From the NCBI GenBank assembly GCA_902762355.1, contig CACWNR010000020.1, positions 1-60,591 of the forward strand: 60,591 nucleotides of DNA, in the 5' to 3' direction. Position 1 is the stretch's first letter, and each line of letters starts with the position of its first letter. Source of the stretch: an uncultured Bacteroidales bacterium. Its GTDB lineage: Bacteria > Bacteroidota > Bacteroidia > Bacteroidales > Paludibacteraceae. The position numbers and the translations under genes were made by a program. The notes beneath the pieces are model-generated. The model was not told where the DNA came from, ran no database searches, and saw nothing but the letters and a program-made list of their open reading frames with translations. Below are positions 8,231 to 60,590 of this stretch, piece by piece.

Positions 8231-9529
8231 ATGACTAAGAATTTTGTAGAAGAGCTCCGTTGGAGAGGGATGTTACAGGACATCATGCCCGGAACGGAGG
8301 AACAATTGATGAAAGAGATGACGACCGCGTATGTGGGTATTGACCCGACAGCGGACAGTCTGCATATCGGTCACTTGTGCGGCATCATGATGCTGCGTCA
8401 CCTGCAGGCCTGCGGCCATAAGCCGATTGCGCTGATCGGTGGTGCCACCGGTATGATCGGTGACCCTTCCGGCAAATCGGCGGAGCGTAACCTGCTCACC
8501 GAAGAGATCCTCCGTCACAACGTGGCGTGCATCCGCGAGCAACTCGAGCATTTCCTCGATTTCAACAGCGATGCCCCCAATGCAGCCGAACTGGTCAACA
8601 ACTACGATTGGATGAAGGACTACACCTTTATCAATTTCACGCGCGACATCGGCAAACTCATCACCGTTAACTACATGATGGCGAAGGACTCCGTCAAGAA
8701 GCGCTTCAACGGCGAGTTCAGCCAAGGTATGTCGTTCACGGAGTTCACCTATCAGTTGCTGCAAGGTTACGACTTCGTCTATCTGAACGAGCATAAGAAT
8801 TGTCTGATGCAAATGGGCGGTTCGGATCAGTGGGGCAATATCACCACCGGTATCGAGCTGATGCGTAAGATGAACGGCAAGACGGCGTTCGCCCTCACAT
8901 GCCCGCTGATCACGAAGGCCGACGGCGGTAAGTTCGGTAAGACCGAGAGCGGTAATGTATGGTTGAGCCGCAAGTACACGAGTCCGTATAAGTTCTATCA
9001 GTTTTGGATGAACGTGAGCGACGATGATGCGAAGCGTTACATCAAGATCTTCACGAGCCTCACGAGAGAAGAGATCGAGGCGCTGATTAAAGAGCACGAA
9101 GAGGCACCGCACTTGCGTGTACTGCAGAAACGCTTAGCGAAAGAGGTGACCTGCATGGTACATAGCGAAGCGGACTACAATGCGGCAGTAGAGGCAAGTA
9201 ATATATTATTCGGAAACGCGACCGCGGATGCGCTGCGCGCGTTGGACGAGGAGACGTTCCTGCAGGTATTCGAAGGCGTAGAACGCTATGAGATTCCGAT
9301 GGAGGAGTTGAAAGCAGGTATCGGTCCGTTGGACTTGCTGGCTGAGAAGACGAATATTTTCCCGAGTAAGGGTGAGGCACGTAAGATGATTCAGGCGAAC
9401 GGTTTCAGTTTGAACAAAGAAAAACTGACCGACCCGCAATCACCAATCACCAATGACCAATTACTAAATAATAAGTATTTGCTCTTCCAAAAAGGAAAGA
9501 AAAATTACTATCTCGTGATAGCAAAATAA
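8231..9529 (+). CDS. tyrS: Tyrosyl-tRNA synthetase
   Basis: This class I enzyme charges tRNA-Tyr with tyrosine in the cytoplasm. At 432 aa it has the usual bacterial length. The HIGH motif is at residues 45-48 ([10 protein letters not shown]), the KMSKS-equivalent KFGKT is near residue 235, and the Tyr-pocket motif GGSDQWGN lies near 197. The C-terminal S4 RNA-binding domain runs from about 360 to the end. Within it, the stretch [10 protein letters not shown] is encoded by a tandem micro-repeat (9438-9467) yet leaves the domain apparently full length. The gene is monocistronic, between the promoter at 8161 and a separate tRNA promoter. Confidence 0.97.
9438..9467 (+). repeat. Micro-repeat island inside tyrS
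   Basis: Degenerate 7-bp units of the form ACCAATN (CAATCACCAATCACCAATGA and onward) inside the S4-domain coding sequence, in frame. Confidence 0.65.
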
Positions 9530-9557
9530 CGATTTTTCGAAAAAAAGTGCAAAATTA

Positions 9558-9589
9558 TTTGGTCAATTCAAAAAATTGTAGTAATTTTG
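9558..9589 (+). promoter_or_regulatory. tRNA-Gln promoter
   Basis: TTTG at 9558-9561 and TAATTTTG at 9582-9589, a spacing of 20 nt, about 20 nt upstream of the mature tRNA. Confidence 0.75.
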
Positions 9590-9608
9590 CACGCTTTTTC
9601 GAAAGTGC

Positions 9609-9679
9609 TGTCCACTCGTATATCGGTATTACACCGGATTTTGGTTCCGAGAAGCGAGGTTCGACTCCTCGGTGGACAA
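9609..9679 (+). tRNA. tRNA-Gln (anticodon TTG)
   Basis: A 71-nt cloverleaf. The acceptor stem TGTCCAC pairs with GTGGACA in all seven positions, with the weak U1-A72 pair typical of bacterial tRNA-Gln. T8 is present. The anticodon arm CGGA-TTTTGGT-TCCG places TTG at 34-36. The T arm is CGAGG-TTCGACT-CCTCG and the discriminator is A. CCA is not encoded. The D stem has one mismatch. Confidence 0.93.
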
Positions 9680-9683
9680 CTAA

Positions 9684-9708
9684 GGCTGCGACGAGCGGCC
9701 TATTTTTT
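9684..9708 (+). terminator. Terminator after tRNA-Gln
   Basis: GGCTGC-GACGA-GCGGCC stem with one G-T pair, then TATTTTTT. It starts five bases after the tRNA. Confidence 0.8.
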
Positions 9709-9773
9709 CCGCAAAAGCGGAGCGAGTGTGATGGAATACTCGGTATTAAGTAACACAAACAACAATTATTCAA

Positions 9774-10376: not shown

Positions 10377-10943
10377 ATGGCAAAATTTCTCATAGTTGGA
10401 CTTGGCAATATCGGTGACGAGTACGCAGGTACACGGCATAACATCGGTTTTATGATGATCGATGCGTTTGCTGCATCCAAAGACGTAAAGTGGGAGGACA
10501 AGCGGTATGGGTTTGTGGCCAAATGTAGGGTTAAGAACGCCGAACTCGTGCTGCTTAAACCTTCCACCTATATGAACCTCAGCGGTAATGCCGTGCGGTA
10601 TTGGTTGGCGCAAGAGAAGATCCCCGTGGAGAACATGCTTGTGCTGGTGGACGACCTCAACCTGCCGTTTGGTACGATTCGTATTCGCAAGCAGGGTTCG
10701 AATGGAGGTCATAACGGACTCGGCAACATCCAATCGGTATTGGGTACAGAGAACTACGCACGCGTACGTTTCGGTATAGGAAACGAGTACACGCGCGGAA
10801 CACAGATCAATTTCGTACTGGGCGAGTGGACCGATGAGGAGAAAAAGCAGATTGACGAGCGGCTGAAGGTAACAAGCGAGATCATTCCGAGTTTCTGTCT
10901 TCAGGGTATTGACCGGACGATGAACCAGTTTAATGGGAAATAG
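10377..10943 (+). CDS. pth: Peptidyl-tRNA hydrolase
   Basis: The enzyme releases tRNA from drop-off peptidyl-tRNA in the cytoplasm. At 188 aa it has the normal length. The N-terminal motif [18 protein letters not shown] carries the substrate-binding Asn and catalytic His21. [12 protein letters not shown] has the catalytic Asp, and [11 protein letters not shown] the conserved Asn/Gly/His segment. It follows rplY and precedes an S4-domain gene, separated only by an 18-bp micro-repeat. Confidence 0.96.
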
Positions 10944-10960
10944 GTTACGGGTTACAGGTT
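10943..10960 (+). repeat. Micro-repeat in the pth/S4 junction
   Basis: GGTTACGGGTTACAGGTT fills the whole gap between the pth stop and the next ATG. The same family occurs inside the genes at 13572 and 59106. Confidence 0.7.
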
Positions 10961-11401
10961 ATGGCGGAAGTTCGTGTAGATAAATATCTCTGGGCGATGC
11001 GGATCTATAAGACGCGGAGCATTGCTGCAGACGCTTGCAAGAACGGGCGTATCGCGATGGTACAATCGTGCCCCGATGGGGCTAAGAATGGCGTACAGTT
11101 GAAGCCCAGCCGCACGTTCAAGGTCGGCGACACGTTCACCGTTCGTAAGGGACCTATCACGTACACGTATAAAGTGCTGCAGTTGACGGAGAACCGTTTG
11201 GGTGCAAAGTTAGTACCCGAGTACCTGCGCGATTGCACGACACCTGAACAACTCGAACTGCTCGAACTGGCACGTCTGGCCGGAAACGGTGGTCGTGACC
11301 GCGGTATGGGTCGTCCGACGAAGAAAGACCGACGGGATATTGAGGTATTCATGAGTGATAACTATCTCGATGAAATAGATTTTGATGAGGATGAGGAGTA
11401 A
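10961..11401 (+). CDS. S4-domain RNA-binding protein (Hsp15-like)
   Basis: The protein has 146 aa. The S4 domain occupies about residues 3-65 (VRVDKYLWAMRIYKTRSIAA and later GDTFTVRKG), followed by a basic linker and an acidic C-terminus (DEIDFDEDEE). The Hsp15 family binds free 50S subunits carrying stalled nascent chains and helps recycle them. The position directly after pth, another rescue enzyme, fits that role. The end overlaps the start of the DUF4924 gene, so they are translationally coupled. The ATG follows the micro-repeat directly and there is no Shine-Dalgarno. Confidence 0.9.
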   Translation: MAEVRVDKYLWAMRIYKTRSIAADACKNGRIAMVQSCPDGAKNGVQLKPSRTFKVGDTFTVRKGPITYTYKVLQLTENRLGAKLVPEYLRDCTTPEQLELLELARLAGNGGRDRGMGRPTKKDRRDIEVFMSDNYLDEIDFDEDEE

Positions 11402-13571: not shown

Positions 13572-15056
13572 TTGGGCACACAACAATACATACTTAGTCC
13601 GCGGGAGGCGTACATAGCCGAACAACAATGGCGGGTAGTGAAACGTTCAGTAGATGCACGGCAACGCGAGTTGCGCGTGCATCTTACTATACTTACGGAC
13701 GACAAAGGAAACCCTGTTCCGAAGGACGCACCTATCCCATTGTACGAGCCGCCAATGTTCCAAGATGTACATCAGGCGAAGCGGTCGGTGGTTATCATCG
13801 GTGCCGGTCCGGCGGGGCTTTTTGCAGCGCTGACATTACTGGAGCACGGGATTAAGCCTATTATTTATGAACGCGGCAAAGAGGTAAGCGAACGAAAAAA
13901 AGACATTGCATTGCTGAATCGAAACGAGGGTTTGAATCCGGAGTCAAACTACTGTTTCGGCGAAGGCGGAGCCGGTACGTTCAGTGACGGCAAACTCTTC
14001 TCGCGTTCGAAGAAACGCGGAAACATGCAGCGAGTAATGGAACTGTTCCATTATTTCGGTGCACCGGATACGGTGTTGTATGAGGCTCACGCACATATAG
14101 GGAGCGATAAACTGCCGGGCATCATCAAGCGAATGCGGGAGTGTATATTGGAGCACGGCGGGGAGATACATTTTGAGACTTGCGTCACAAGTCTCAAAGA
14201 GGTTACGGGTGACGGATTACGGGTTACAGGAGCTCCTATTATCTTGGCGATCGGGCATTCGGCACATGACACGTATCGGATGTTAGCGAAAGAGGGGGTG
14301 AAGTTAGAGACGAAAGGTTTTGCGATGGGAGTACGCGCAGAACATCCGCAGAGTCTGATCAATAAACTAATGTACCATTCGACGAATGTCGAATATGTGG
14401 GTAATGCATCGTATAGTCTCGTGACGCAAGTGGATGGACGAGGCGTGTATTCATTCTGCATGTGCCCGGGCGGACATATCGTGCCGGCAGGAAGTGAAGC
14501 GGGCAGTTGCGTCGTGAACGGGATGAGTGCGAGTCATCGCAACTCACCATACGCCAACAGCGGTATGGTGGTGCAGATCAACCCGGAAGATATAGAGGGC
14601 GATGATCCGCTACGCGGATTAGCGTTCCAAGAACAATTAGAACGCATGGCGTTTGAGCATGGAGGTCCGCAAGCACAGGCGCCTGCACAACGGTTAAAGG
14701 ATTTTGTGGAAGGGAAGGCAAGTAAAGATCTGCCGGCGTGCAGTTATCTGCCGGGTATTGTATCGAGCCGATTGGATGAGTGGTTACCGGCACATATAGG
14801 TAAACGCTTACAGCAGGGTTTTCGGGACTTCGATAAGAAATACCCGGGCTTCTTGACGAACGATGCCGTGATCGTTGGCGTGGAGAGTCGGAGCAGCAGT
14901 GCGGTTCGTATTCCGCGGGATCCGGAGACACTCCAATCGGTGAGCACTCCCCTGCTCTACCCTTGCGGCGAAGGAGCGGGTTATGCCGGCGGCATCACGA
15001 GTTCCGCGTTGGATGGCATCAATGCCGCATTGAAAATTGCTGAATTGGCACGATAA
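13572..15056 (+). CDS. FAD-dependent oxidoreductase (NAD(P)/FAD-binding)
   Basis: A cytoplasmic flavoprotein of 494 aa with a Rossmann dinucleotide-binding motif VVIIGAGPAGLFAALTLLEH at about residue 73 and the C-terminal FAD motif PCGEGAGYAGGITSSALDGI. It matches the uncharacterised FAD-dehydrogenase family of Bacteroidetes; the substrate is unknown. The start is TTG, since an in-frame stop lies two codons upstream and the next ATG is about 60 codons in. Around residue 212 the peptide EVTGDGLRVTG is encoded by a GGTTACGGGT-type micro-repeat and replaces part of the segment before ILAIGHSAHDTYR. It follows recA by three bases. Confidence 0.85.
   Translation: MGTQQYILSPREAYIAEQQWRVVKRSVDARQRELRVHLTILTDDKGNPVPKDAPIPLYEPPMFQDVHQAKRSVVIIGAGPAGLFAALTLLEHGIKPIIYERGKEVSERKKDIALLNRNEGLNPESNYCFGEGGAGTFSDGKLFSRSKKRGNMQRVMELFHYFGAPDTVLYEAHAHIGSDKLPGIIKRMRECILEHGGEIHFETCVTSLKEVTGDGLRVTGAPIILAIGHSAHDTYRMLAKEGVKLETKGFAMGVRAEHPQSLINKLMYHSTNVEYVGNASYSLVTQVDGRGVYSFCMCPGGHIVPAGSEAGSCVVNGMSASHRNSPYANSGMVVQINPEDIEGDDPLRGLAFQEQLERMAFEHGGPQAQAPAQRLKDFVEGKASKDLPACSYLPGIVSSRLDEWLPAHIGKRLQQGFRDFDKKYPGFLTNDAVIVGVESRSSSAVRIPRDPETLQSVSTPLLYPCGEGAGYAGGITSSALDGINAALKIAELAR
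14201..14230 (+). repeat. Micro-repeat inside the FAD oxidoreductase gene
   Basis: GGTTACGGGTGACGGATTAC followed by GGGTTACAGG, in frame, encodes VTGDGLRVTG. It belongs to the same family as 10943-10960 and 59532-59566. Confidence 0.75.
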
Positions 15057-15089
15057 TTGATAGCTAATAGATAATAGATGATAGATAAA
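15057..15089 (+). repeat. Micro-repeat in the leader of the GH28 gene
   Basis: Degenerate GATAGCTAATAGATAATAGA units start at the stop codon of the FAD oxidoreductase and end ten bases before the next ATG. Confidence 0.6.
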
Positions 15090-15099
15090 TTTAATTCTT

Positions 15100-16649: not shown

Positions 16650-16866
16650 TGAGATGTCGGAAAATATTGTTGGATAGGGTGAGGTTAGGATGACATTAGG
16701 TAGATGGTAGGAGTAAAGTCTAGGATTACCACGTAATGAGTGTGTAATTGATAGCTAAATGACAGGTAAATGACATTAGGAAGAGGGATGGGCAATAACT
16801 AACCAATAACCAAGTAATAACTAACGAATAACTAACGATTGATAGGTAAAAGGAAGGTAAAACAAC
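16650..16866. repeat. Degenerate repeat-rich spacer between convergent genes
   Basis: This gap holds no gene. It consists of short imperfect repeats: ATGACATTAGG twice (16691 and about 16771), GATAGCTAAATGACAGGTAA, and a run of AATAACTAAC/AATAACCAAG units from about 16795 to 16840. It has the same character as the leader at 1462-1545. Confidence 0.55.
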
Positions 16867-24676: not shown

Positions 24677-26602
24677 TTACTTGTCAAAAGGCTCCCTATA
24701 GGTGCAACCTTCCCGCCATCTGGAACATCCGTATTGGGTATTTCCACGGATGATCAGGCCTTGGCGACAAACGGGACAAAGCATACCCGCCTTGTTACTT
24801 TTGACATCGCGCACGACGCCGGAAGTCATCTCTTTGAGTTCCACCAGGAAATCCTGCGCCGTATATTCACCGCGCTCTATCTCACGCAGTTTTTTCTCCC
24901 ACAGACCGGTTAGTTCTGCCGACTTCAGCAGCGGAGAGATGATGAGATGAATGAGGTTGATTCCTGTCTCCGTAGCGCGCAGGGACTTGCCTTGCTTGAC
25001 GATATACTTGCGCTGATAGAGTTTCTCAATGATGGCCGCACGCGTAGATGGACGACCGATACCGTTCTCCTTCATCGCCTCGCGCAGTTCATCGTTCTCG
25101 ACCGTCTTACCTGCCGTCTCCATGGCGCGAAGCAGCGTAGCCTCGGTATAGTACTTCGGCGGCGTAGTGGTTTTCTCTTTGAGCACGGGCTCGTGGGGTC
25201 CGCTCTCACCTTTCACAAAAGCAGGAAGGGATTTGGAATTCTCAGAATTATCAGAATTATCAGCGTTTTCTGAATTATCAGATTCTTCTGCGCCAAACAC
25301 TACGCGCCAACCGGGTTTCAAGACCTCACGACCGGTGACCTTGAAATCGATCTCGCCGGCTTTGGCCATCACAGTGGTGTTGCTCACTTCGCAATCGGGA
25401 TAGAACACCGCAATGAAATGCAGCGCCACGAGATCGTAGACTTTCTTCTCATCTGCCGTCATATTATCCGGGCGTTGTCCGGTAGGAATGATGGCATGGT
25501 GGTCGGTCACTTTCTTGTTATCGAACACCTTCTTGGATTTCGGCAGTTTGGCGCCGATGAGCGGTGCCACCTGCGGGAAATAGTCCTTGATGCCGTTCAG
25601 TGTACTCGGCACTTTGGGATAGATATCGTCGCTCAGATAGGTCGTGTCTACACGCGGATAGGTCGTGAGGCGTTTCTCATAGAGCGATTGGATTAGTTGG
25701 AGCGTTTGCTCCGCCGAGAAAGAATATTTCTTATTGCAATCGACTTGCAGAGAGGTCAAGTCATACAGTTTGGGCGCGTACTCCGTACCTTTCTTCTTCT
25801 CCACGCTCGTGATCGTCAGCGGCAGATCTTTGATGCTGTTCACCAATTCCTGTCCCTGCTCCTCACTCGTGATGGCGTACTCGCCGTCTTCGACGGGCAT
25901 CTGGGCACTAAACAACGTATCGCGGTAGTTGGTCTTGAGTTCCCAATAGGTACGCGGCACGAAGTTCTCTATCTCTGCCTGCCTTTTGACCACCAGCGCG
26001 AGTGTCGGCGTCTGGACACGTCCCACGGACAGCACTTGCCGATCTTTCCCGCTCCCGCGTGCGTACCTTATAGTATACGCGCGCGTGGCGTTCATGCCGA
26101 GCAACCAATCACCGATGGCGCGCATCATACCTGCTTCGTACAGGTGCTGGTACTCCGATTGGTCCTTGAGTTGCTGAAATCCGTCGCGGATAGCCTCTTC
26201 GGTCAGCGAGTTCACCCACAGGCGCTTCACCGGACACTTACACCCGGCCTGCTGGTACACCCAGCGCTGGATCAACTCTCCTTCCTGCCCGGCATCACCG
26301 CAGTTAATGACTTCGTCGGCTTGGTCGATCAGGTTCTTGATGACATTGAATTGTTTGTGTACGCCGGCATCGCCGAACACCTTGATAGAGAAACGCGGCG
26401 GAATCATCGGCAGCGAACTCAGCGTCCATGCCTTCCACTGCTCCGTATATTCCTGCGGGTCGAGCAACGCGCACAGATGGCCGAACGTCCAGGTGACCTG
26501 GTATCCGTTGCCTTCGAAATAGCCGTCGTGCTTTTGCTTAGCGCCCAGCACATTGGCTATATACGCGCCCACCGAGGGTTTCTCTGCTACACAAACAATC
26601 AT
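24677..26602 (-). CDS. topB: DNA topoisomerase III (TopB)
   Basis: A type IA topoisomerase of 641 aa. The Toprim domain is at the N-terminus (MIVCVAEKPSVGAYIANVLG). The catalytic Tyr is in RLTTYPRVDTTYLS near residue 315, with GRVQTPTLALVVKRQ in the DNA-binding part. The C-terminus carries one four-Cys zinc ribbon (CPVC...C...C, ending CTYREPFDK). In the linker near residue 440 the peptide SDNSENADNSDNSENS is encoded by GATAATTCTGA-type micro-repeats (25236-25290). It starts three bases after wzc and belongs to that transcription run, an unusual partner for polysaccharide export. Many Bacteroidetes topB copies are on mobile DNA; nothing else mobile is seen here. Confidence 0.94.
   Translation of the reverse strand: MIVCVAEKPSVGAYIANVLGAKQKHDGYFEGNGYQVTWTFGHLCALLDPQEYTEQWKAWTLSSLPMIPPRFSIKVFGDAGVHKQFNVIKNLIDQADEVINCGDAGQEGELIQRWVYQQAGCKCPVKRLWVNSLTEEAIRDGFQQLKDQSEYQHLYEAGMMRAIGDWLLGMNATRAYTIRYARGSGKDRQVLSVGRVQTPTLALVVKRQAEIENFVPRTYWELKTNYRDTLFSAQMPVEDGEYAITSEEQGQELVNSIKDLPLTITSVEKKKGTEYAPKLYDLTSLQVDCNKKYSFSAEQTLQLIQSLYEKRLTTYPRVDTTYLSDDIYPKVPSTLNGIKDYFPQVAPLIGAKLPKSKKVFDNKKVTDHHAIIPTGQRPDNMTADEKKVYDLVALHFIAVFYPDCEVSNTTVMAKAGEIDFKVTGREVLKPGWRVVFGAEESDNSENADNSDNSENSKSLPAFVKGESGPHEPVLKEKTTTPPKYYTEATLLRAMETAGKTVENDELREAMKENGIGRPSTRAAIIEKLYQRKYIVKQGKSLRATETGINLIHLIISPLLKSAELTGLWEKKLREIERGEYTAQDFLVELKEMTSGVVRDVKSNKAGMLCPVCRQGLIIRGNTQYGCSRWREGCTYREPFDK
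25236..25290 (-). repeat. Micro-repeat inside topB
   Basis: About five imperfect copies of GATAATTCTGA (minus strand), in frame, encode a Ser/Asp/Asn/Glu linker. Confidence 0.7.
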
Positions 26603-31000: not shown

Positions 31001-31562
31001 TAGTCCAAAACACGGAAACGACACGGTAACGACACGGTATCGGAACGTGGTTAGATGCTGGGGAATGCCTACCTGTATGCTGGTTATCTGCATGCTTTTA
31101 TGTAGCTGTTCCATTAGTTATAAGTTCAACGGCGCCAACATCAACTATCAGACCACGCATTCGATCTCTATCGCCGACTTCCCGAACAACGCACCGATGG
31201 TCAACCCGACCCTCAGTAGCGGACTCACGGAGCATATACGTGATCTATTCCAACGCCAGACTCGTCTGCAAATTCTCCGCAAAGGCGGCGATCTCGAACT
31301 CGAAGGAGAGATTGTCGGCTACGACCTCTCGCAAGGTGCTATCGGCGCCAATAGTTATGCTACGGAGAGCAAACTGACCCTCCGCGTCGCAGTACATTTC
31401 ACCAATAATGTAAATCCCGAAGACTCGTTCGACAAGACCTATTCGGCCTACCGCACCTTCGATGCCACCCAGATGTTGACCGATGTGCAAGACGAGTTAT
31501 GCGATCTGCTCGTAACGGAAATTGCGGAGAGTATATACAACGACACGGTGGCTAAATGGTAA
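30990..31562 (+). CDS. lptE: LptE-like LPS assembly lipoprotein
   Basis: An outer-membrane lipoprotein that plugs LptD during LPS insertion. It has 190 aa from ATG 30990; the lipobox MLLCSC is at about residue 40, so the n-region would be unusually long and starts further in (ATG 31065) are possible. Part of the long N-terminus (31009-31048) is encoded by a CGACACGGTAA-type micro-repeat. The body has the pattern of Bacteroidetes LptE (ISYKFNGANINYQTTHSISI, LELEGEIVGYDLS). The stop lies inside the terminator hairpin at 31544. Confidence 0.88.
   Translation: MVYNSPKHGNDTVTTRYRNVVRCWGMPTCMLVICMLLCSCSISYKFNGANINYQTTHSISIADFPNNAPMVNPTLSSGLTEHIRDLFQRQTRLQILRKGGDLELEGEIVGYDLSQGAIGANSYATESKLTLRVAVHFTNNVNPEDSFDKTYSAYRTFDATQMLTDVQDELCDLLVTEIAESIYNDTVAKW
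31009..31048 (+). repeat. Micro-repeat at the 5' end of lptE
   Basis: Imperfect 13-bp units: ACACGGAAACG, ACACGGTAACG, ACACGGTATCG, then GAACGTGG. Confidence 0.6.
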
Positions 31563-36767: not shown

Positions 36768-38408
36768 ATGACAAAACCGATAATCTATCAACTCTTCCCC
36801 CGTTATTTCGCCAACTACAACGAGACGCGCAAGCATAACGGCACGAAGGAAGAGAACGGATGTGGCCGGTTTATAGATATCAACGAGCGTGCACTCCAAT
36901 CCATCGTCGATTTGGGTGCCACGCACGTTTGGTACACCGGTGTGATCCGCCATGCAACAGCACAATACAACAACCCTGCCATCACCAAAGGCCTTGCCGG
37001 CTCGCCCTATGCCATCACCGACTACTACGATGTCGATCCGGATTTGGCGAAGAACGAAGCCAAACGTATGCAGGAGTTCGAGGCCCTCGTTCAGCGCACC
37101 CACAAGGCAGGTCTCGGAGTCATCATCGATTTCGTGCCCAATCACGTAGCACGCCAGTATAAGAGTCTATGCAAGCCTGCGGGAGTCGAAGACTTGGGCG
37201 AGAACGATCACCCCGAGTGGGCCTTCTCACCGCTCAATAACTTCTACTACCTCCCGGGCGAGCGCTTCACGATGGACAAAGATCTGCAGGGTTACGAAGA
37301 GTTCCCCGCCAAGGTGACGGGTAACGATTGTTTCACTTCTCACCCCGGACTCAACGATTGGTACGAGACGGTCAAACTGAACTACGGTGTCTTCTATCAA
37401 GGCGGCCGCGAGAAGCAGTTCGATCCCATCCCGTCCACCTGGACGAAGATGCGCGATATCCTGCTCTTCTGGGCGTCCAAAGGCATCGACGGCGTCCGCG
37501 TAGATATGGCGGAGATGGTTCCCGTCGAGTTCTTTGCGTGGGCCATCAAGGCGGTAAAGAAGAAATACAAGAAGTTCCTCTTTATCGGCGAGTGCTATGA
37601 CCCGAACCAGTACAACGCGTACCTCGCAGCAGGTTTCGATTACCTTTACGATAAAGTGGGTATGTACGACTACCTGCGTGGCGTAACGAGCAAAGGCTGG
37701 CCGGCCGAGGGCATCACCAACCAGTGGATGCAGCACGGCGACGAGCGGATCAAACATATGCTCTATTTCCTCGAGAACCACGACGAGCAACGTATCGCCA
37801 GCGGTTTCTGGTGCGGCTCCGGCCGTTGTGCCGAGCCCGCGATGATCGTTGCCGCGACGCTCAACCAGTGTCCGGTGATGATCTACTCCGGTCAGGAACT
37901 CGGTGAACGAGGCATGGACATGGAGGGCTTCTCCGGTATCGACGGACGCTCGACTATCTTCGATTACTGGGGACTCAAGAGCCTGCAGGCATGGGCGAAC
38001 AAAGGTAAGTTCGACGGCGCGCACATGAACGATGTGCAACGCGAGATACGTTCGTTCTATCAGACCCTGCTCACCCTTGCGCGCGAAGACAAAGCGATCC
38101 AGAAGGGCACGATGTACGACATCACCTACGCACAGGGCGAAGGATTCAATAGGCAGCAACATTATGCGTTCCTCCGTCATATCAAGGGCGAGACCTTGCT
38201 CGTTATCGTCAATTTCCACGACCGCGAAGAACCTATCAACGTGCGAATCCCAAACGATGCATTCGTTTATCTGGGACTCGATGGTAAAGCGAAGGCAACG
38301 GCTACTGACCTGCTCCGCGGAGGTAAGTATCCGATCGACTTCACGCCCGATAGCGTCTTCCGCATCGTCCTACCCGCTTGGAAAGGAGTGATACTTCGTA
38401 TCAAATAA
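36768..38408 (+). CDS. Alpha-amylase family protein (GH13)
   Basis: The protein has 546 aa with no signal peptide, so it is cytoplasmic. A (beta/alpha)8 barrel with intact catalytic triad: nucleophile Asp in GVRVDMAEM (about 245), acid/base Glu in FIGECYD (about 274), third Asp in ENHDEQR (about 338); region I reads VIIDFVPNHVARQY. A C-terminal beta domain follows. The family acts on alpha-1,4-glucans such as glycogen or maltodextrin; exact specificity is open. The position right after ackA suggests shared transcription and a link of glycogen use with fermentation, which is inference. Confidence 0.92.
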   Translation: MTKPIIYQLFPRYFANYNETRKHNGTKEENGCGRFIDINERALQSIVDLGATHVWYTGVIRHATAQYNNPAITKGLAGSPYAITDYYDVDPDLAKNEAKRMQEFEALVQRTHKAGLGVIIDFVPNHVARQYKSLCKPAGVEDLGENDHPEWAFSPLNNFYYLPGERFTMDKDLQGYEEFPAKVTGNDCFTSHPGLNDWYETVKLNYGVFYQGGREKQFDPIPSTWTKMRDILLFWASKGIDGVRVDMAEMVPVEFFAWAIKAVKKKYKKFLFIGECYDPNQYNAYLAAGFDYLYDKVGMYDYLRGVTSKGWPAEGITNQWMQHGDERIKHMLYFLENHDEQRIASGFWCGSGRCAEPAMIVAATLNQCPVMIYSGQELGERGMDMEGFSGIDGRSTIFDYWGLKSLQAWANKGKFDGAHMNDVQREIRSFYQTLLTLAREDKAIQKGTMYDITYAQGEGFNRQQHYAFLRHIKGETLLVIVNFHDREEPINVRIPNDAFVYLGLDGKAKATATDLLRGGKYPIDFTPDSVFRIVLPAWKGVILRIK

Positions 38409-38409
38409 T

Positions 38410-38438
38410 CTGAAAACTGAATACTGAATGCTGAATAC
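38410..38438 (+). repeat. Micro-repeat at the start of the UbiA gene
   Basis: CTGAAAACTGAATACTGAAT followed by GCTGAATAC. The start codon ATG at 38428 is part of the repeat. Confidence 0.65.
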
Positions 38439-39390
38439 ATTCTCCGATATCATGCGTCTGGTGAGGTGGAGCAACTTGCTCTTCCTCGCCGCGCTGGTAT
38501 GGCTCATGGAGAAATGGGTAGCGGTGCCTATCCTCGATCAACTCGCCTTCGGCGAGCAACTGCCGGGATCGATCCTGCTGCTCATCATGCTGGCCACCGT
38601 CTTCATCGCCGCCGGCGGGTACGTCATCAATGATTATTTCGATGTCAAGATCGATCGTATCAACCGTCCCGACGAACTGATTGTCACGCGCTCTATCTCC
38701 AAGCCCGCGGCGATGCATCTCAGCCTCAGCCTCAGCGGCATCGGTATCGTGTGCGGCATCGTAGCGGCTATCCTGCTACGCAGCCTCACCATCGGTATCC
38801 TGTTCATTCTCGTGCCGGGTTTGCTCTGGTTCTATTCGTCCAGTTACAAACGGCTCTTTATGATCGGCAACCTCATCATCGCCCTGCTGGCAGCGCTCAC
38901 GCCTATGCTCGTAGCGCTGGCGAACGTAGCCGTTCTGCAACTGCGATACGCTACCATCCTGCCCTACACCACGCTGCAGCACGACCTCTACGCCTGGCTC
39001 GGCGGCTTTGCCCTCTTTGCGTTCCTGCTTACCTGGATACGCGAGATCGTCAAAGACATGCAGGATCAAATGGGCGACCGCGAACTGGAATGCCATTCCA
39101 TGCCCGTCGTATGGGGAGACCTATGGACGAAGATCTTCGTCACTGCCCTCATCGTGCTCACGATCGCTATCATCGGACATCTATGGTACCACGTGCTGCC
39201 CTTCCCCATCCGTTGGACAAGCCTCAGCACGCGGTATATCGCCTTCGGCATCATCATTCCGCTGCTCGGATCCATAGGATTACTCTGGGCGGCGAAGATA
39301 CCGTCCGATTACAAAACATGCCAGCAACTGATCAAATTCACGATGTTGCTGGGCATGCTCTATTCCATTTGTATTGTAAGGGGCCTTTAA
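38428..39390 (+). CDS. UbiA-family prenyltransferase
   Basis: An integral membrane prenyltransferase of 320 aa with about nine hydrophobic segments. Both aspartate motifs are present: NDYFDVKIDRINRPDE for NDxxDxxxD, and EIVKDMQDQMGDRELECHSM for the second. The sequence resembles the Bacteroidetes group annotated as geranylgeranylglycerol-phosphate geranylgeranyltransferase, but the substrate cannot be proven by sequence. The start codon lies inside a tandem micro-repeat. Its 3' end overlaps the convergent gene by 4 bp. Confidence 0.85.
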   Translation: MLNTFSDIMRLVRWSNLLFLAALVWLMEKWVAVPILDQLAFGEQLPGSILLLIMLATVFIAAGGYVINDYFDVKIDRINRPDELIVTRSISKPAAMHLSLSLSGIGIVCGIVAAILLRSLTIGILFILVPGLLWFYSSSYKRLFMIGNLIIALLAALTPMLVALANVAVLQLRYATILPYTTLQHDLYAWLGGFALFAFLLTWIREIVKDMQDQMGDRELECHSMPVVWGDLWTKIFVTALIVLTIAIIGHLWYHVLPFPIRWTSLSTRYIAFGIIIPLLGSIGLLWAAKIPSDYKTCQQLIKFTMLLGMLYSICIVRGL

Positions 39391-47876: not shown

Positions 47877-49221
47877 GTACATCTTTTATTTCATCGGTGA
47901 CGGCATGGGCGACAACCAGGTTCTGCTCGCCGAGATGTACCGTTCGGCCCTTCAAGGCGAACCTCTCGGACGCGTGCAGACGCTCATGACCACTTTCCCT
48001 TATTCCGGTCAAGCTTCCACTTACTCCAAGACCAACGGCATCACGGACTCGGCGGCAGCCGGTACGTGTCTCGCGACAGGCACCAAGACCCGCAACGGGA
48101 TGTTAGGTATGGATCAGGACAGCGCACGTATCACCACGATTGCCGAGGAACTGAAGGCACAGGGCTGGGGTATCGGCATCATGACCACCGTCGCCATCGA
48201 CCATGCGACACCGGGCGCTTTCTACGCGCACGTGCCCAACCGCAATAAATATTACCGGATAGGCAAACAACTCGCGGAGTCGAATTTCGATTTCTTCGGT
48301 GGCGCAGGTTTTCATCACCCGCAGGGCAAGCACGATGACAAGAAAACCAACCTCTACCGCAATGCCGAAGAGGCCGGTTATACGATCGCGCATGGCGTGG
48401 AAGAAGCCAAATCACAAATCGAAAATCAAAAATCAAAAATCGATAAACTCATCCTCGTTCAGAAGGATGATGATCAGGGGGCTAAGCATGGCTCCAATCT
48501 GCCTTATGCCATTGATCGCAAAGAAGGAGACCTGACGCTGGCGCAGATTGTGAGCACGGCCATTCCTTTCCTGGAGGCGCGTCATGAGCGGTTCTTTATG
48601 ATGGTAGAGGGCGGAATGATCGACTATGCGTGTCACGGTGACGATGCTGCCACGGCTATCGGTGAGGTATGGGATATGGACGAAGCAATGCGGGTAGCCT
48701 ATGATTTCTATTTGGCTCATCCGGACGAGACGCTTATCGTCGTGACAGCCGATCATGAGACCGGTGGTCTCGCGCTCGGTAACAGTGACTACACGCTGTA
48801 CCTTGACCTGCTCCGGAACCAGAAATGCTCGGCATGGGTGCTCAGCGATCTGTTCACGCAGCTCTTCAAAGAGAATAAGAAACCTTCGTGGGAATCCGTG
48901 AAAGCGCTCTATCGTGAGAACCTCGGTTTCTGGGAGACGGTAGAGATCACGGCCGAGGAGGAGGCTAAGCTCCACGAGCTCTATAAGAAAGCCTGCAAAG
49001 GCAAAGCCAAAGACGCCAAGAACATGTATAAATCGGTGAACGCCCTTGGCGCAGCGGGCATCTCGTTGCTCAACCGCAAAGCCCATGTCGGTTGGACCAC
49101 TCGCGCACACTCTGCGCACGCCGTACCTATCTTCGCCATCGGCGCCAATGCCCAGCTCTTCACCGGCTGGCATGACAACACCGACCTCGTTCCCCTCATC
49201 AAAAAAGCGGTTCTCGAATGA
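47812..49221 (+). CDS. Alkaline phosphatase
   Basis: A secreted metal-dependent phosphomonoesterase of 469 aa. The start at MKKRILLAMLLLVALVVNAE gives a signal peptide and lies inside the basic tail of the exonuclease gene. Motifs: the first metal-site Asp in FYFIGDGMGDNQV, the nucleophile Ser in TDSAAAGTCLATGTKTRNG, and TADHETGGLALGN with His/Asp metal ligands. Near residue 205 the peptide KSQIENQKSKIDK is encoded by an AATCAAAA-type micro-repeat (48409-48443). The stop lies within the terminator at 49201. Confidence 0.93.
   Translation: MKKRILLAMLLLVALVVNAEVKYIFYFIGDGMGDNQVLLAEMYRSALQGEPLGRVQTLMTTFPYSGQASTYSKTNGITDSAAAGTCLATGTKTRNGMLGMDQDSARITTIAEELKAQGWGIGIMTTVAIDHATPGAFYAHVPNRNKYYRIGKQLAESNFDFFGGAGFHHPQGKHDDKKTNLYRNAEEAGYTIAHGVEEAKSQIENQKSKIDKLILVQKDDDQGAKHGSNLPYAIDRKEGDLTLAQIVSTAIPFLEARHERFFMMVEGGMIDYACHGDDAATAIGEVWDMDEAMRVAYDFYLAHPDETLIVVTADHETGGLALGNSDYTLYLDLLRNQKCSAWVLSDLFTQLFKENKKPSWESVKALYRENLGFWETVEITAEEEAKLHELYKKACKGKAKDAKNMYKSVNALGAAGISLLNRKAHVGWTTRAHSAHAVPIFAIGANAQLFTGWHDNTDLVPLIKKAVLE
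48409..48443 (+). repeat. Micro-repeat inside the alkaline phosphatase gene
   Basis: Imperfect units AAATCAC, AAATCGA, AAATCAA, AAATCAA, AAATCGA, in frame. Confidence 0.65.
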
Positions 49222-49928: not shown

Positions 49929-49981
49929 ATACGTTAAACATAGGGTAAACATAGGTTAAACATACGTTCACAATACGTTTC
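49929..49981. repeat. Micro-repeat between hicA and the 80-bp repeat
   Basis: Imperfect units ACGTTAAACAT, AGGGTAAACAT, AGGTTAAACAT, ACGTTCACAAT, ACGTTTC. Confidence 0.6.
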
Positions 49982-51199: not shown

Positions 51200-51244
51200 A
51201 ATTTTTCCTTTCGTTAACTCGTTAAACATTCATTCACTCGTTCA

Positions 51245-57200: not shown

Positions 57201-57505
57201 TCACCGTTTTGACCATCAAAGTCAACACCCGCTGTTGTATTGTTTATTTTGATACTCTTTTTTGCTTTCGCTCTAAAGAATACGCCATCTATTGTAGCTG
57301 TTGTCACAGCACTGTTGGCTCCTGTAATAGTTTGAGCGGGGAAATTAGTTGTATTCGTAAAATCAATACTATCCAAACGAACCCAACTCGTCTGCGCCAT
57401 AACATTGCCGATGGAGAAAGTGAGTAAGAGTAAGGTCATGGTCATTACCTTCCAATGTCGTAGGAATCCTAGACCTTTGTCCTTTTTTTGTAATACTTTT
57501 GTCAT
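51245..57505 (-). CDS. Giant secreted multidomain protein (InlB-like, Ig-like and Big_2 modules)
   Basis: The protein has 2086 aa with a long signal sequence cleaved near VMAQ (about residue 38). Order: beta-sandwich (about 40-205); three InlB-type repeats (208-432, e.g. YEVSYNLNGAPGDAPTQEDV); a Rossmann-like segment (433-650, KVLYVTATAEATVKANDKLY); Ig-like and InlB modules (660-910); a Big_2 domain (1130-1205, TWTSSNPAVATVVNGVVTGV); four Ig-like modules with core YYVIVTNKK or YQWYICDDAE (1217-1720, interrupted by a sandwich at 1398-1540); two further beta modules; tail KVLINGELFILRGEKMYDAT plus GRLVK. It is presumably at the cell surface; no catalytic site is recognised. It lies in a run with toxin-antitoxin genes and no promoter of its own is evident. 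Confidence 0.88.
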   Translation of the reverse strand: MTKVLQKKDKGLGFLRHWKVMTMTLLLLTFSIGNVMAQTSWVRLDSIDFTNTTNFPAQTITGANSAVTTATIDGVFFRAKAKKSIKINNTTAGVDFDGQNGDASSHHFGIPVTGVNGSIKVIIYHDYNNTSANFKMGISHATDNDPSGTQTWDLSVGNSGATKNANDWVMTKSGLTGSEYIVWAMEAGSSYKVIKKIAIYTEAPTGYSVTYVENGHGANQIDLTGQTKLPATLPTLSEAGWIFGGWFTDNGTFETPAVAGATLTADATLYAKWTEDSSVTKYEVSYNLNGAPGDAPTQEDVAEGAKFNLAAAPSWAGHAFDGWLCNIDSDVKAAGASYTMTAANTTFTAQWTTLYAITKGGHTNGDFTISPAEQKAGEVVTLVATPDEDYLFDAWEIVKSEDASATGITVDANGQFEMPAYAVTVNATFVADTRQKVLYVTATAEATVKANDKLYAALKDIYNVKIVGPTSDADQTGYDLIVLHESIGGSSYNATAVASAKAGNTPVLNTKTYFYGNTNDASQRWQWGAPNAGQTVNGATLNSAYCNVASHPLFSGVTMTAGFFEITDDAAAKCMQPIGSFTSGKEGYILATTPNAGEGNGCAIHELTPAQRGTSAGKYLMISVSNAKLDALNANGQKLFQNAAAYLVGNTAWEPATVPTSPAIEATGGAIHAVGDAVTMTASASNVSATTLYAWYKGETLEAAEEAGAIQTAKTAAADGTTYSIASCELESAGTYWCVIVNAEGCEASASLELSVSSTPITTYDITYVSAKGTAPDAENAASVTLAEITGVSGWEHQGWKANADVVVDDATVTANTLIANGKTAVLSADVTFTAVWRQVLTVTYNANGGTCGTASATWGEGDAALVLPDAAVANLVFDGWYTEATGGTLIGRAGGTYTPTADIEIFAHFGAKLYQAVYANGFDAFINQSTKTVTVYYLDGTPAPALTSVKAMKADGTEVAAGTFVDNGSTIDVTIDEKTATYTVTKTAVAPYTYVNGDPITFDGTETYIKTGNAFSTASGKEGWKFSKNDNDWSRETPGNNRIYFFIGAAESITLTSGCSSARAIKVYRNGTQIFDNTMPKNSASPNYITLTGSNAPAMYAIVSNQTDGDGAIKIMALAPWVSTTAVVLKEGESAISEKEIWAGANFTLTAEVTPDNASNKTITWTSSNPAVATVVNGVVTGVAANADPVTITASTVDGVTATCAVTVTAAPSPCETPVITADPASQAYCAGSEPTLTVAANDPSDGGTLHYAWFKAGETDEAVGTDAASYTVEAAGTYYVIVTNKKDGNLDASATSANAVVTLNTPASITTQPTGKSEVVSGSEVTLSVVATNATGYQWYICDDAEKANASAISGAEAANYVFNCSASAYYYCVVGNACGAGIESNVVSVKLEPTGCNLIGTATDNSYTKTGEWSVYPVNSNGVHTPTDNNFGTCKAFDNTTDVNCINTRRFAINFVKDVESVTIYARGGTGRTFTSVSVSSEMTKNTYTELTDIDKQITTIDGAGNQYVITTEGIIPGGQYAWFEFSGSFSGVFKICYTEAPAKCEAPVLPALANKELCEGDAFTAWDATATVSDGGSLSYQWYNGDTDEALSGKNAAEFTPTEDGNYYVIVTNKKTGYRDNTTKSAILNVTHFASAAITTAPTDVRQTVGEEATLSVVATGKAPLTYQWYTCDDAEGNNPVIIPGAEEDSYSVTVTDGLDQYYKVVVSSGCGEASAIARIVEWVALPQLSVSATTTWDWVNAGENIKLTDGTTPAKNEECVMANVKVGGKMPTNDATFNSQALLFCGENVRAVDGGRAYASVAYIKFNTTVAGKVTVEFSTNTEDKVRCVKINGVASETSDKKTTVKTFSTVVPAGEVSLVGYEGESANKYIRISKIIFEVTPDVADADYTREVTQGRYGTICLPNGGVMVGAQLFEVAYYGQTSEKIFFDEIVNGVMEAGVPYIFLPREGATQLGVYYTDAVNAPAGNHNGLYGSYSRTELPSDGSCYILLNNQYCQVLSAENYVGANKAYIKLGEITPVEPALVPGRRRMSMSVVRQTPTGLENGELLNGENGVQKVLINGELFILRGEKMYDATGRLVK

Positions 57506-58670: not shown

Positions 58671-58675
58671 AGTTT

Positions 58676-58708
58676 TATAAATTAATGATTAATATTTGTG
58701 TTAATTTT
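58676..58708 (-). promoter_or_regulatory. AT-rich leader repeat, copy 3
   Basis: Minus-strand CACAAATATTAATCATTTAA just before the ATG at 58670, the same 20 bases as copy 2. Confidence 0.5.
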
Positions 58709-58729
58709 GATTTAAGCGAACTTGCTCTA

Positions 58730-58915
58730 TCATAGTTCTCGAATGAATTGCATTGCCTCGTCAACGCTCATTGAGGGGGCTGTTTCACATTCACGCTTAG
58801 CTCTTACCACCGCATTAGCCACACGATAAGCCTGCTCCAAACCTAGGAAGCGGTTCCAACGTCTCGGAGACATCCGCACCGTGATGCTTCTTGTATCTCT
58901 CTCTAATACACACAT
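58730..58915 (-). CDS. Orphan antitoxin-like small protein
   Basis: The protein has 61 aa from ATG 58915 (MCVLERDTRSITVRMSPRRW). The strand-helix pattern ITVRMSPRRWNRFLGLEQAY and the end MSVDEAMQFIREL are reminiscent of ribbon-helix-helix antitoxins. No toxin gene follows directly. It is the first gene after the promoter at 58947 and may head the run down to the 40-aa peptide. Longer upstream starts lie in the promoter and are rejected. Confidence 0.65.
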   Translation of the reverse strand: MCVLERDTRSITVRMSPRRWNRFLGLEQAYRVANAVVRAKRECETAPSMSVDEAMQFIREL

Positions 58916-58946
58916 AATAGAATTGTATTTAGTTTCATTTCCGCGG

Positions 58947-58977
58947 CAAAGATACAAATTTATTTTTACATACGCAA
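58947..58977 (-). promoter_or_regulatory. Promoter of the toxin-antitoxin/giant-protein run
   Basis: On the minus strand TTGCGTATGTA, 19 nt after TTGC, TATCTTTG. It is the only clear promoter upstream of the genes between 58915 and 51077. Confidence 0.75.
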
Positions 58978-59105
58978 GCGCGGGAGGGTATGCGCGCGAA
59001 TTTTCGACAAGAAACGTCAATTTTTACACATATGCGCCTGTTGATTGCATAAAAAGAGACGGGGCACGATGTATGTGCTCCGCCTCTAAATAGCGCTCGC
59101 GGAAA

Positions 59106-60590
59106 TTACAATTTCTTTCCGGTTATGTCATAGCGTTCACCGTTACGGATGATGATAACGTGATCGTTCTCGATGATCTTATAGACACCTACCTCATCGT
59201 CTTTGATCAGCATAATCGGGGCTTTCAATGAGCCATGATGAGCGTCCGCTGAATAGTTGATAGAACCGCAGGCAGGCACATAGGTCTCGCCGTTCATCTC
59301 GAAGCGCAACTCACCTACCCGATCACTCTGGATGGTCAGGAAATACAGCGAATCTATCGGCGTAGCTACAGCGGCGAGTTCGTCGCCTACATAGACGCGG
59401 AGCGTCTGACCGCCTTCGGCTGTAGGACCGTTATCACTGTAAGACCGCTCTGCTGTAAGACCGCTTTCGCTGTATGACACCTTGGCTATCATCGTCATGT
59501 TGGTAGCGGCAGCGGGGTTGGAGAAATGGTCTCCCGTAACCTGTAACCCGTCACCCGTCACCCGTTTAGCAGGCGCGTTGCCGGTCTGACGGTAGAACTT
59601 AATCTCCTTGGTGCCCGGAGCCAGCCGGCGGAAGAGGTATCCTTCGCCGGGACGGAGGGCTGTGAGGTCACCTTCCCATTTCTTATCCTCGGAGAAGTAC
59701 GCAAAGCGGTTGTGAGCCTTGATCATATCGCCCTGGGACGCGTAGTCGTAGTAGGCTGTGAGTGCCTTGGTCACAGAGACAGGTTCGTCCAGCAGACACG
59801 GCATCGGACTCCACTGACCGTCGCCGCGTACGCGGATAGTGAGCGAGTCAGCCGACAGTTTATCTCCGGCGATCTGCATCGTGTTCTCCTGCTCCACGTA
59901 CATCATGTACATCTGCGAGAAATGGAGTCCCGTGAGCGTACCTACGAAGCCATCGGAAGCGGCGTTATAGGAAGCGAACTGGCGAGCGTTGGGGTTCTTG
60001 ATGAGATCGCCCTCGTTCCAAGGATTGGAAGCGGTGACGCAGGTGTTGAGGTGGCCCTTGGTGGTCGTCAAGTCGAGATGGGTAGATATCCAGTTCCATC
60101 CGCTGTGGAGAGCGATATTCTGCGTCTCGCTGCCTCCCGCAGTCAGGATAACGAGGTTACCATCGCAACCATAGACGTAGCCGTGAGCAAAGAGGATGTT
60201 CCTGTCGGTGGTCAGGTTGTACATCTTGCCGGTCGATGCTTGCCACAGGCGGAAATGTATCTGCTTGCGATTCATCTTATCGTTGCCGAAGATGGTGAGG
60301 TACACTCTGGACTTATTGGTCACATTGTCGAAGTCCACATTCGCCATACCGACGCACTCATTGTTGTAGAGGGCAATAACTTTGTCATTCGGGTCGGAAT
60401 CAAAGACATCGCCTATCTTAACCTGTCCGCAGAGCGACATGTTGTACGGATACTTACCCGTTTCGGGTTCGTCGTACGGACATTCGGTCGTCACCTCCAC
60501 CTCGATGAGTAGCGGTTCGGACAATCCCTGATCATCGGTCAGATAGACGACATGGTTGTGGATACCGGGTTTGAGCACTTCCGTTACGGT
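59106..60590 (-). CDS. Large secreted protein, C-terminal part (5' partial)
   Basis: The frame is open to the end of the window, so the N-terminus lies beyond it; a GTG at 60578 is only the first possible start inside. The visible 490 aa hold a repeated beta module in which DPNDKVIALYNNECVGMANV and the WNWIS motif (LHSGWNWISTHLDL) are prominent, a type known from Bacteroidetes extracellular proteins. Two micro-repeats encode KRVTGDGLQVTGDHF and a SYSESGLTAERSYSDNGPTA stretch. It ends in the tail YKIIENDHVIIIRNGERYDI plus TGKKL, as in three other secreted proteins here. Function unknown. Confidence 0.82.
   Translation of the reverse strand, partial: TVTEVLKPGIHNHVVYLTDDQGLSEPLLIEVEVTTECPYDEPETGKYPYNMSLCGQVKIGDVFDSDPNDKVIALYNNECVGMANVDFDNVTNKSRVYLTIFGNDKMNRKQIHFRLWQASTGKMYNLTTDRNILFAHGYVYGCDGNLVILTAGGSETQNIALHSGWNWISTHLDLTTTKGHLNTCVTASNPWNEGDLIKNPNARQFASYNAASDGFVGTLTGLHFSQMYMMYVEQENTMQIAGDKLSADSLTIRVRGDGQWSPMPCLLDEPVSVTKALTAYYDYASQGDMIKAHNRFAYFSEDKKWEGDLTALRPGEGYLFRRLAPGTKEIKFYRQTGNAPAKRVTGDGLQVTGDHFSNPAAATNMTMIAKVSYSESGLTAERSYSDNGPTAEGGQTLRVYVGDELAAVATPIDSLYFLTIQSDRVGELRFEMNGETYVPACGSINYSADAHHGSLKAPIMLIKDDEVGVYKIIENDHVIIIRNGERYDITGKKL
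59408..59479 (-). repeat. Micro-repeat inside the last gene
   Basis: About four imperfect copies of GCGGTCTTACAGC (minus strand) with 15-21-bp spacing, in frame. Confidence 0.7.
59532..59566 (-). repeat. Micro-repeat inside the last gene, GGTTACGGG family
   Basis: Minus strand: GGGTGACGGGTGACGGGTTA then CAGGTTACGGGAG. It encodes RVTGDGLQVTGD, nearly the same peptide as at 14201-14230. Confidence 0.75.

Follow-up and report, generated by a model that had tools for sequence, protein, structure and literature searches.

Heptad repeat blocks in a rumen Paludibacteraceae genome keep their sites, differ in word between related species and may turn over by copying between loci

The window considered here is the whole 60,591-nucleotide (nt) stretch of DNA that was analysed, contig C20 (CACWNR010000020.1) of a 1.94-Mb genome that comprises 36 contigs and is 76% complete (GCA_902762355.1). 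The host is a rumen Paludibacteraceae-like bacterium represented by a metagenome-assembled genome (MAG), and its genus is represented by 178 genomes; among the named matches listed for the tyrS gene of the window, the closest are ruminant-gut MAGs of uncultured Bacteroidales or Paludibacteraceae (RUG631, 97%). Pfam matches among the open reading frames (ORFs) of the window identify tyrS, a FAD-dependent protein, a topoisomerase, LptE, an alkaline phosphatase and UbiA, and the last ORF is without a Pfam match. Within these genes and at the junctions between them lie short tandem arrays of degenerate units, mostly of 7 nt, which are the subject of this work. Arrays tend to be found at the same places in related species, in several cases with a different repeated word, and the words tend to be those that each genome uses elsewhere. 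Hereafter the window's genome is called G000, other G numbers are members of the same genus and L numbers denote loci.

The arrays of the window were called with Tandem Repeats Finder (TRF) at a minimum score of 30. Those of period 7 begin with an AATCACC-type array within tyrS (9437..9475, + strand; TRF 9437-9461, the right end being placed by eye) and a GGTTACG/A array at a gene junction, which runs into the next start codon (10942..10963, +; TRF 10942-10961). A GGTTACG-type array lies in the gene for the FAD-dependent protein, where it is referred to as island 1 (14199..14233, +; TRF 14201-14227), and an ATAGATA array occupies the junction after that gene (15057..15090, +; TRF 15060-15088). 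A CTGAATA array sits at the stop codon of one gene and overlaps the start of the next, identified by Pfam as UbiA (38408..38440, +; TRF 38410-38438), an AAATCAA array lies in the alkaline phosphatase gene (48406..48445, +; TRF 48409-48441), and the last ORF, on the - strand, contains a GTCACCC / GTAACCC array (59529..59565, given in + strand letters). Arrays of 11-nt units are found near the start of lptE (ACACGGTAACG, 31010..31039, +) and, with no strand assigned, as an intergenic pair within 16744..16838 (GTAAATGACAG and AATAACTAACG; TRF 16744-16775 and 16794-16838) and at a non-coding place (49935..49964, TAAACATAGGG); a degenerate 11/22-bp array at 1465..1523 is also non-coding. The initial annotation had named 14 places with such islands, and TRF arrays at or beside 13 of them confirm the observation; the exception, at 51211, reads as a hairpin.

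Abundance was assessed in a 460,591-base sample consisting of the window and twenty 20-kb stretches of the same genome, at a TRF score of at least 40 (which drops the weak 10942 array), with five order-4 Markov simulations as the chance control. Arrays with a period of up to 30 numbered 149, against a mean of 9.8 in simulated sequence. Period 7 accounted for 53 arrays against 0 and period 14 for 23 against 0.4, period 11 for 10 against 1.4 and period 22 for 5 against 0.6, with smaller excesses elsewhere, among them period 12 (9 against 1.8) and period 15 (12 against 1.0). Genome-wide counts therefore do not match those of simulated sequence, a match that the initial annotation had named as fatal to its proposal. 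A single universal heptamer was rejected, as many words coexist: in the sample of G000, at least 14 words are each represented by two arrays or more (the top 14 being listed). The possibility of an assembly artefact was rejected by inference: at about 32 nt the arrays are below the usual short-read length, and they are found in many separately assembled MAGs.

These arrays have a preferred size, which was surveyed with a lag-7 segment finder in which overlapping lags were resolved. In G000, 65 of 88 lag-7 arrays measure 26-40 nt, lengths of 31-33 nt being the commonest, 46 have 4.0-4.5 copies and 9 are of 20 nt or less. The corresponding figures are 92 of 143 arrays at 26-40 nt, 62 with 4.0-4.5 copies and 22 of at most 20 nt in G050, and 22, 16 and 10 of 50 arrays in G006, which has a longer tail. 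Without lag competition, a Markov control of length equal to that of the G000 sample yielded nine arrays, every one of 19 nt or less, and the three genomes together (1.26 Mb) yielded 282, of which 63 are of 31-33 nt and 42 no longer than 20 nt. Slippage from two-unit seeds predicts mostly short arrays, a pattern that is not seen. Among long arrays (at least 3.5 copies; 1.16 Mb of the three genomes), 203 have lag 7, 27 lag 8, 21 lag 11, 12 lag 6, 10 lag 9, 5 lag 12, 3 lag 5 and 1 each lags 10 and 13. About four copies are present in 8 of 17 of the 11-mer arrays of G000, a preference that is less clear in G050 (5/22) and G006 (6/25). At 57 loci from other Bacteroidales, with tyrS at most 77% identical (959 kb), 16 long lag-7 arrays were found, 7 of them of 31-33 nt. 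Heptad arrays of this size, at lower density, were seen in L109 (Bacteroides sp.), L133 (Bacteroidaceae) and L144 (Paludibacteraceae).

For the placement of the arrays, as for the formal dialect test below, 400-461 kb was sampled from each of the genomes G000, G050 and G006, and ORFs of at least 300 nt were crudely called. Heptad arrays lie in ORFs in 52 of 83 cases in G000, 61 of 128 in G050 and 14 of 49 in G006, their density per base being about 8, 10 and 22 times higher, respectively, outside ORFs than inside. Where an array is near an upstream stop codon, it starts between 3 nt before and 6 nt past the end of that codon in 51 of 99 cases. Lag autocorrelation in DNA outside ORFs (25,723 bases, again with crude ORF calling) gave z values of 4.3 at lag 7, 5.8 at lag 8 and 8.1 at lag 11. 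Pervasive lag-7 mutation outside ORFs was rejected because the rise at lag 7 is modest and does not exceed that at lags 8 and 11, and the arrays are thus discrete islands.

Comparison of individual sites among relatives shows how the words change. For the tyrS and FAD sites 30 loci were given, and those passing an anchor filter were counted. The tyrS site measures 51 nt between anchors in 14 of 14 filter-passing genomes, G000 included, and it holds the heptad array in G000, a variant of it in G157 and ordinary sequence in the remaining genomes; when G000 is aligned with 19 further members of the genus, the place is free of gaps, and RUG631 (L073) has the array. At FAD island 1, for which 17 of the 30 loci pass, the best lag is 7 in 15 of 17 and the letter-shuffle p is at most 0.005 in 14 of 17. 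About ten words occupy this one coding position, including GGTTACG, TGGAAAA, ATTTCAA, CTCTAAA, AATTAAA, GGACAAT and AGTTGAA, and one word is common to the three nearest genomes (G000, G157 and G181). Codon phase is kept in 16 of 17 genomes, in which the length of the island equals 2 modulo 3, with 32 nt (6 genomes), 35 nt (4) and 38 nt (2) among the lengths. At FAD island 2 the segment is 24 nt long and array-free in 5 of 17 genomes and longer in the other 12; as judged by eye, some 12 nt are replaced, and the duplication sought as a sign of target-site duplication of the transposon or miniature inverted-repeat element type is not evident. Insertion as the sole mode was rejected for tyrS, where lengths are equal, and insertion is supported at FAD island 2 and at lptE. 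In L215 and L221 at FAD island 2, and in L079 near 6700, a palindromic or G-rich CCCTCCCC...GGGAGG-like sequence is present where relatives carry heptads within that gene. Some 180 nt past island 1, a second FAD array lies in a stretch that is identical in three species, G157 (L194), G045 (L197) and G184 (L219); the identical run between G157 and G045 is 71 nt there, in contigs that are 77% identical overall, and this looks like short-tract exchange between species.

The alkaline phosphatase site carries AAATCAA in G000, AGAGTCA in G157 and GATTAGC in G181, with flank identities of 0.85-0.91, GATCACGA 8-mers in G005 and no array in G182. The picture there is weaker, p being at most 0.01 in 5 of 15 segments, three of these at lags 8 or 14; codon phase is kept in 15 of 15. 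Junction 10942 was aligned in 15 genomes and measures 5 to 46 nt: one word is used in the near relatives G041 (19 nt), G000 (26 nt) and G157 (26 nt), a different word is found in G093 (33 nt), and G045 (5 nt) and G005 (8 nt) are array-free. The array at 15057 recurs in G157, other relatives having other words or other sequence, and the array at the UbiA start (38408) likewise recurs in G157 and gives way to CGTAATAA 8-mers at that place in G005. The lptE array of G000 is matched at 93% identity by the more distant G045 and at 60% by the nearer G157. Of the 11-mer arrays, that at 16794 has one extra 11-nt unit in G181 and that at 49935 is absent from the aligned place in G157. Units of 8 nt (GATCACGA, CGTAATAA and TTGAGAGT) occur in some genomes (loci of G005, G045, G182 and G006), a few of them at sites where relatives have 7-nt units. 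Most relatives thus do without the same bases at array sites, and the nearest ones have some arrays in common; the initial annotation had held that the same bases in distant relatives would speak against it.

The same tendencies were found when arrays were pooled in 203 array-by-genome comparisons on syntenic contigs of six genomes, 91 in ORFs and 112 outside, which are not independent, as arrays are shared and pairs are counted in both directions, and which include periods 15 and 21 as well as heptads. Within ORFs, the arrays are 0.675 identical against 0.796 for their flanks, and below the flank in 59 of 91 comparisons, while in 52 of 91 an array is found at the orthologous place too, compared with 6 of 773 coding places chosen at random. 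The lengths differ by a multiple of 3 in 81 of 91 comparisons and not at all in 36 of 91, so that on/off switching between species is not seen. Outside ORFs the identities are 0.729 for arrays and 0.804 for flanks, and an orthologous array is present in 48 of 112 cases against 4 of 78. Two closer genome pairs, with identities of about 94% and 91%, retain some arrays as they are, and the rest have been extended, rewritten in part or replaced. The variable positions of arrays show clustering in phase (315 against 400.6 expected), a figure that was set aside as evidence because array detection favours it.

The words themselves differ between genomes. The tyrS word CAATCACCAATCAC has 22 matches in G000, neighbouring units of an array being counted separately, and its reversed control has none, which bears out the earlier statement that one family recurs at distant places. 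Across 41 genomes it is found 22 times in G000, 15 in G056 and 13 in G005, and not at all in G006, G017 and G021 (reversed control, 5 in total); CTTTCGACTTTCGA is found 78 times in G006, 66 in G021 and 62 in G056, and not in G000 (reversed control, 1). Four words taken from arrays at orthologous sites were counted in 13 genomes, the site of origin included, and three of the four are commonest in their own genome: TGGACAA with 37 in G050 (runner-up 9), AAAATCA with 25 in G000 (runner-up 13) and AATTTCA with 18 in G148 (runner-up 14). Neither AATTTCA nor the fourth word, GATTAGC, has a clean control, the reversed pattern of the former being itself a repeat word (up to 12 matches) and that of the latter a rotation of its repeat. 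Words at orthologous sites tend to match the vocabulary that their genomes use elsewhere. A formal dialect test, which left out pairs with similar flanks or less than 2 kb apart, found an identical unit at unrelated loci in 4.70% of pairs within G000, 2.33% within G050 and 6.43% within G006, against 0.85% between G000 and G050, 0.12% between G000 and G006 and 0.75% between G050 and G006; the observed value was reached in none of 1000 label permutations.

Longer strings are also held in common by unrelated loci. Imperfect strings of at least 24 nt recur in 59 of 12,436 pairs of arrays from one genome (G000 7/3,341; G050 38/7,961; G006 14/1,134) against 9 of 20,900 pairs from different genomes. 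In G000 a 26-nt block stands in different frames in a pair of unrelated ORFs, and 23 nt of the tyrS array recur in an unrelated gene, again in another frame. A pair of G050 ORFs holds a 31-nt block without a change of frame, so that two of the three ORF pairs viewed differ in frame, and a 29-nt block is present at three G050 loci. When the order of units within arrays was shuffled (20 shuffles), the observed sharing in G050, 82, exceeded both the mean (60.6) and the maximum (76) of the shuffles. Such identical strings at unrelated loci could be patches copied from an ectopic source.

That the islands of the window are all one thing is not supported. The 9/18-bp repeat in the topoisomerase gene (topB; 25236..25290, - strand; TRF and Pfam) is in codon phase, has the look of a low-complexity linker and stands outside the heptad phenomenon. 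The intergenic segment 51211-51260 contains an inverted repeat (CTCGTTAAA / TTTAACGAG) that reads as a hairpin, possibly a terminator, and no TRF array. The 17-bp repeat at 59419-59478, called by TRF, is different from the heptads and belongs with L083 11295-11393 and L161 19110-19181 to a separate family of 17-24-bp repeats with AGACCGCT or AGACCGTT, present in several genus members. The window also holds two very large ORFs, of 1948 amino acids at 2247-8093 (+) and of 2086 amino acids at 51245-57505 (-).

We consider it an even call that the heptad and related islands belong to a genome-wide set of short tandem blocks, mostly of four to five 7-nt units (about 32 nt), with 8- and 11-nt units rarer, and we put at about the same level the proposal that these dispersed blocks spread and turn over by ectopic short-patch copying between arrays, in which resident arrays would act as hot spots and selection would preserve the frame. 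Short single-stranded or nascent DNA ends would misanneal through the few bases that two arrays have in common, and a patch of tens of nucleotides would then be copied or pasted, overwriting a resident array or placing a new one. Selection would eliminate copies by which a reading frame or an operon is disrupted and spare those in permissive protein segments and at gene junctions; the stop avoidance that the initial annotation had pointed out calls for no design, as survival under selection suffices. An existing array would be the easiest landing place, so that positions persist while words change, and the word commonest in a genome would be copied most, giving a species-specific dialect. A preferred block size, retention of position and codon phase, replacement of words, dialects and strings shared at unrelated loci are all observed; the dialects and shared strings argue for copying in trans, and replacement at equal length or in 3-nt steps argues against unit-step slippage within genes. 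The misannealing, the direction of copying, and the making of the first array by copying rather than by an unknown writer, are what we infer. We would rate somewhat below even the wider proposition that the genus continually rewrites its genome, blocks of about 4.5 units being copied between loci until hundreds of sites drift to a genome-specific vocabulary (molecular drive), the figure of hundreds per genome being an extrapolation from 83 arrays in 460,591 bases. We are as reserved about its corollary that, with many sites inside conserved genes, proteins change heedless of selection save for frame and tolerance.

Several results weigh against copying between arrays. All nine between-genome string shares are between G000 and G050 (9/10,584), which is not negligible beside the 7/3,341 within G000, and the unit-order shuffle was not exceeded in G000 (45; mean 35.2, maximum 47) or G006 (24; mean 22.4, maximum 32). 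A donor-recipient pair with mapped junctions was not found. As to dialects, the lead of G148 for AATTTCA becomes slim, at 15 against 14 in G005, when the 3 matches at the G148 site are subtracted, GATTAGC from the phosphatase array of G181 is not commonest in that genome (5, against 6 in G042), and an earlier small-sample dialect test was non-significant without G000 (0.080; permuted mean 0.059, maximum 0.110). The 42 of 282 arrays of at most 20 nt compare with about 25 predicted from one G000-derived control, which places short arrays near, not at, background. The preferred unit number is explained neither by copying nor by slippage, misannealing alone falling short of a size preference of about 4.5 units, and it may reflect how the patch is made; a sequence-specific writer could give dialects too. 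The one-unit step at junction 10942 between relatives that have one word in common favours local gain or loss, and by allowing it leaves room for copying and local change both to act.

Local change of this kind is the basis of the most serious rival, in which the polymerase slips by 7 nt, or less often 8 or 11, and re-copies a local seed about four times per event, the arrays decaying by mutation and being re-made at permissive sites with no copying between loci. An excess of heptamers is described for many bacteria, with polymerase contact length put forward as its cause (PMC4679880, PMC4692102). The extra unit of the 16794 array in G181 is, like the junction 10942 lengths, a one-unit step, and neighbouring units agree at variable positions slightly more (0.544) than in shuffled columns (0.493), a figure that array detection favours. 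Local expansion is nevertheless hard to reconcile with genome-specific dialects at unrelated loci and with shared imperfect strings, the very observations that uphold the original contention that slippage on its own would not put the same family at places far apart. It is at odds also with the lengths of FAD island 1, which at mostly 32, 35 and 38 nt differ by 3-nt rather than unit steps, and with the modest lag-7 autocorrelation outside ORFs, not above that of lags 8 and 11 in the 25,723 crudely delimited bases. We regard it as unlikely, while giving it real weight.

The remaining explanations fare less well. Selected binding sites, at which a DNA- or RNA-binding protein would read evenly spaced cores with a preference that varies by species, so that words vary and spacing stays, seem improbable. 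The preferred unit number, the 31-33 nt blocks among 7 of 16 long heptad arrays in other Bacteroidales and the start of 51 of 99 stop-adjacent arrays between 3 nt before and 6 nt past the end of the stop codon would all suit such sites, as would the phase clustering of variable positions (315 against 400.6 expected, subject to the same detection bias), and four-unit heptamer elements in Geobacter are termed putative regulatory elements (PMC2700814). Against them stand the many words used at once by one genome, the location of more than half of the G000 arrays (52/83) in ORFs, and the need for the word to change between species whose flanks are 0.85-0.91 identical.

Slightly less probable again is a dedicated writer, whether a polymerase (telomerase-like or untemplated) or a diversity-generating system, making repeat DNA that is pasted into the genome. 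Such an enzyme would suit the preferred block size and the quantised periods, with 203, 27 and 21 long arrays at lags 7, 8 and 11 against one at lag 10 in 1.16 Mb. The reverse transcriptase family RVT_1 of Pfam is, however, matched in just 4 of 21 genus genomes (G042, G045, G056 and G180), with no match in the other 17, including G000 (76% complete), other polymerase families not having been searched; it is missing from the array-bearing G006, G049, G050 and G182, which are 95-97% complete, and a reverse-transcriptase writer is accordingly disfavoured. The use of many words per genome also counts against a writer. The suggestion that an active process spreads or writes short repeats therefore holds in part: block size, replacement at the same site, dialects and shared strings fit it, and a writing enzyme was not found. 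In G045 two reverse-transcriptase matches lie close together on one strand (C16:24629-26673, L266).

Least probable of all is horizontal transfer, in which arrays or words pass between species mainly by short homologous-tract recombination and so give discordance: the second FAD array stretch common to G157, G045 and G184, with its 71-nt run in contigs 77% identical, and a G000 lptE array nearer to that of G045 than to that of G157 would follow from it, but it leaves the within-genome dialects at unrelated loci and the blocks common to unrelated genes unexplained. An excess of identical runs of at least 45 nt between species points the same way as those two cases; it is confounded by constraint and by two tRNA genes and was dropped as proof of short-tract exchange.

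With a genus of 178 genomes in which one coding position carries different words, whether such repeats originate in local stutter or in copying between loci can be tested in large part by sequence. Should copying hold, it would supply bacteria with clustered in-frame changes of their proteins and with genome-wide concerted evolution, and would confound phylogenies and the detection of selection. The 31-33 nt blocks of some other Bacteroidales suggest that cultured species might serve as a model.

To our knowledge, heptamer repeats have been noted in bacteria for years without a shown mechanism. Neither genome-specific dialects nor in-place word replacement inside genes was recognised among the matches listed in the open-licence literature. 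One report describes dispersed heptamers with a four-unit preference (GGGNATC) in Xanthomonas and Nostoc, includes variation in length and sequence between the same genes of two close species, and cites heptamers of Calothrix (PMC4692102). Accounts of other systems describe four-heptamer elements between and within genes of Geobacter (PMC2700814), the heptamer TAACTGA of Beggiatoaceae (PMC4679880) and, at the P6b element of the Nostoc tRNA-Leu intron, degenerate heptanucleotide repeats of classes 1 and 2 (PMC3488679). The present arrays resemble these long simple sequence repeats (LSSR/STRR heptamers) in being tandem 7-nt units at many loci, far above chance (53 against 0 arrays of period 7). 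Also in common are the four-unit preference of Xanthomonas, Nostoc and Geobacter, the degenerate units, the sites near stop and start codons, and the variation of related genomes in length and sequence at matching intergenic places. They differ in that many words, and not one or few, coexist here and the dominant words vary by species of a single genus; in G000, moreover, over half of the arrays lie in ORFs, even if their density per base is higher outside, and a single orthologous coding position can have its word exchanged wholesale. The P6b element offers a parallel for a fixed site with degenerate heptads that differ in class and copy number by strain, but it is a single RNA hairpin site, while here many protein-coding and junction sites are involved across the genome.

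Short-patch double illegitimate recombination of Acinetobacter baylyi is a rare process that is not known to be tied to repeats and is raised when single-strand exonucleases are missing. Its ectopic patches would, like those proposed here, replace sequence by microhomology and leave clustered changes with little or no length change; the present case differs in its tie to repeats. Phase-variable simple sequence repeats are likewise short tandem repeats within and before genes, from which the present arrays are set apart by in-gene length differences that are multiples of 3 in 81 of 91 between-species comparisons. In their block size, in persisting positions with replaced words and in genome dialects, these arrays go beyond ordinary heptamer repeats.

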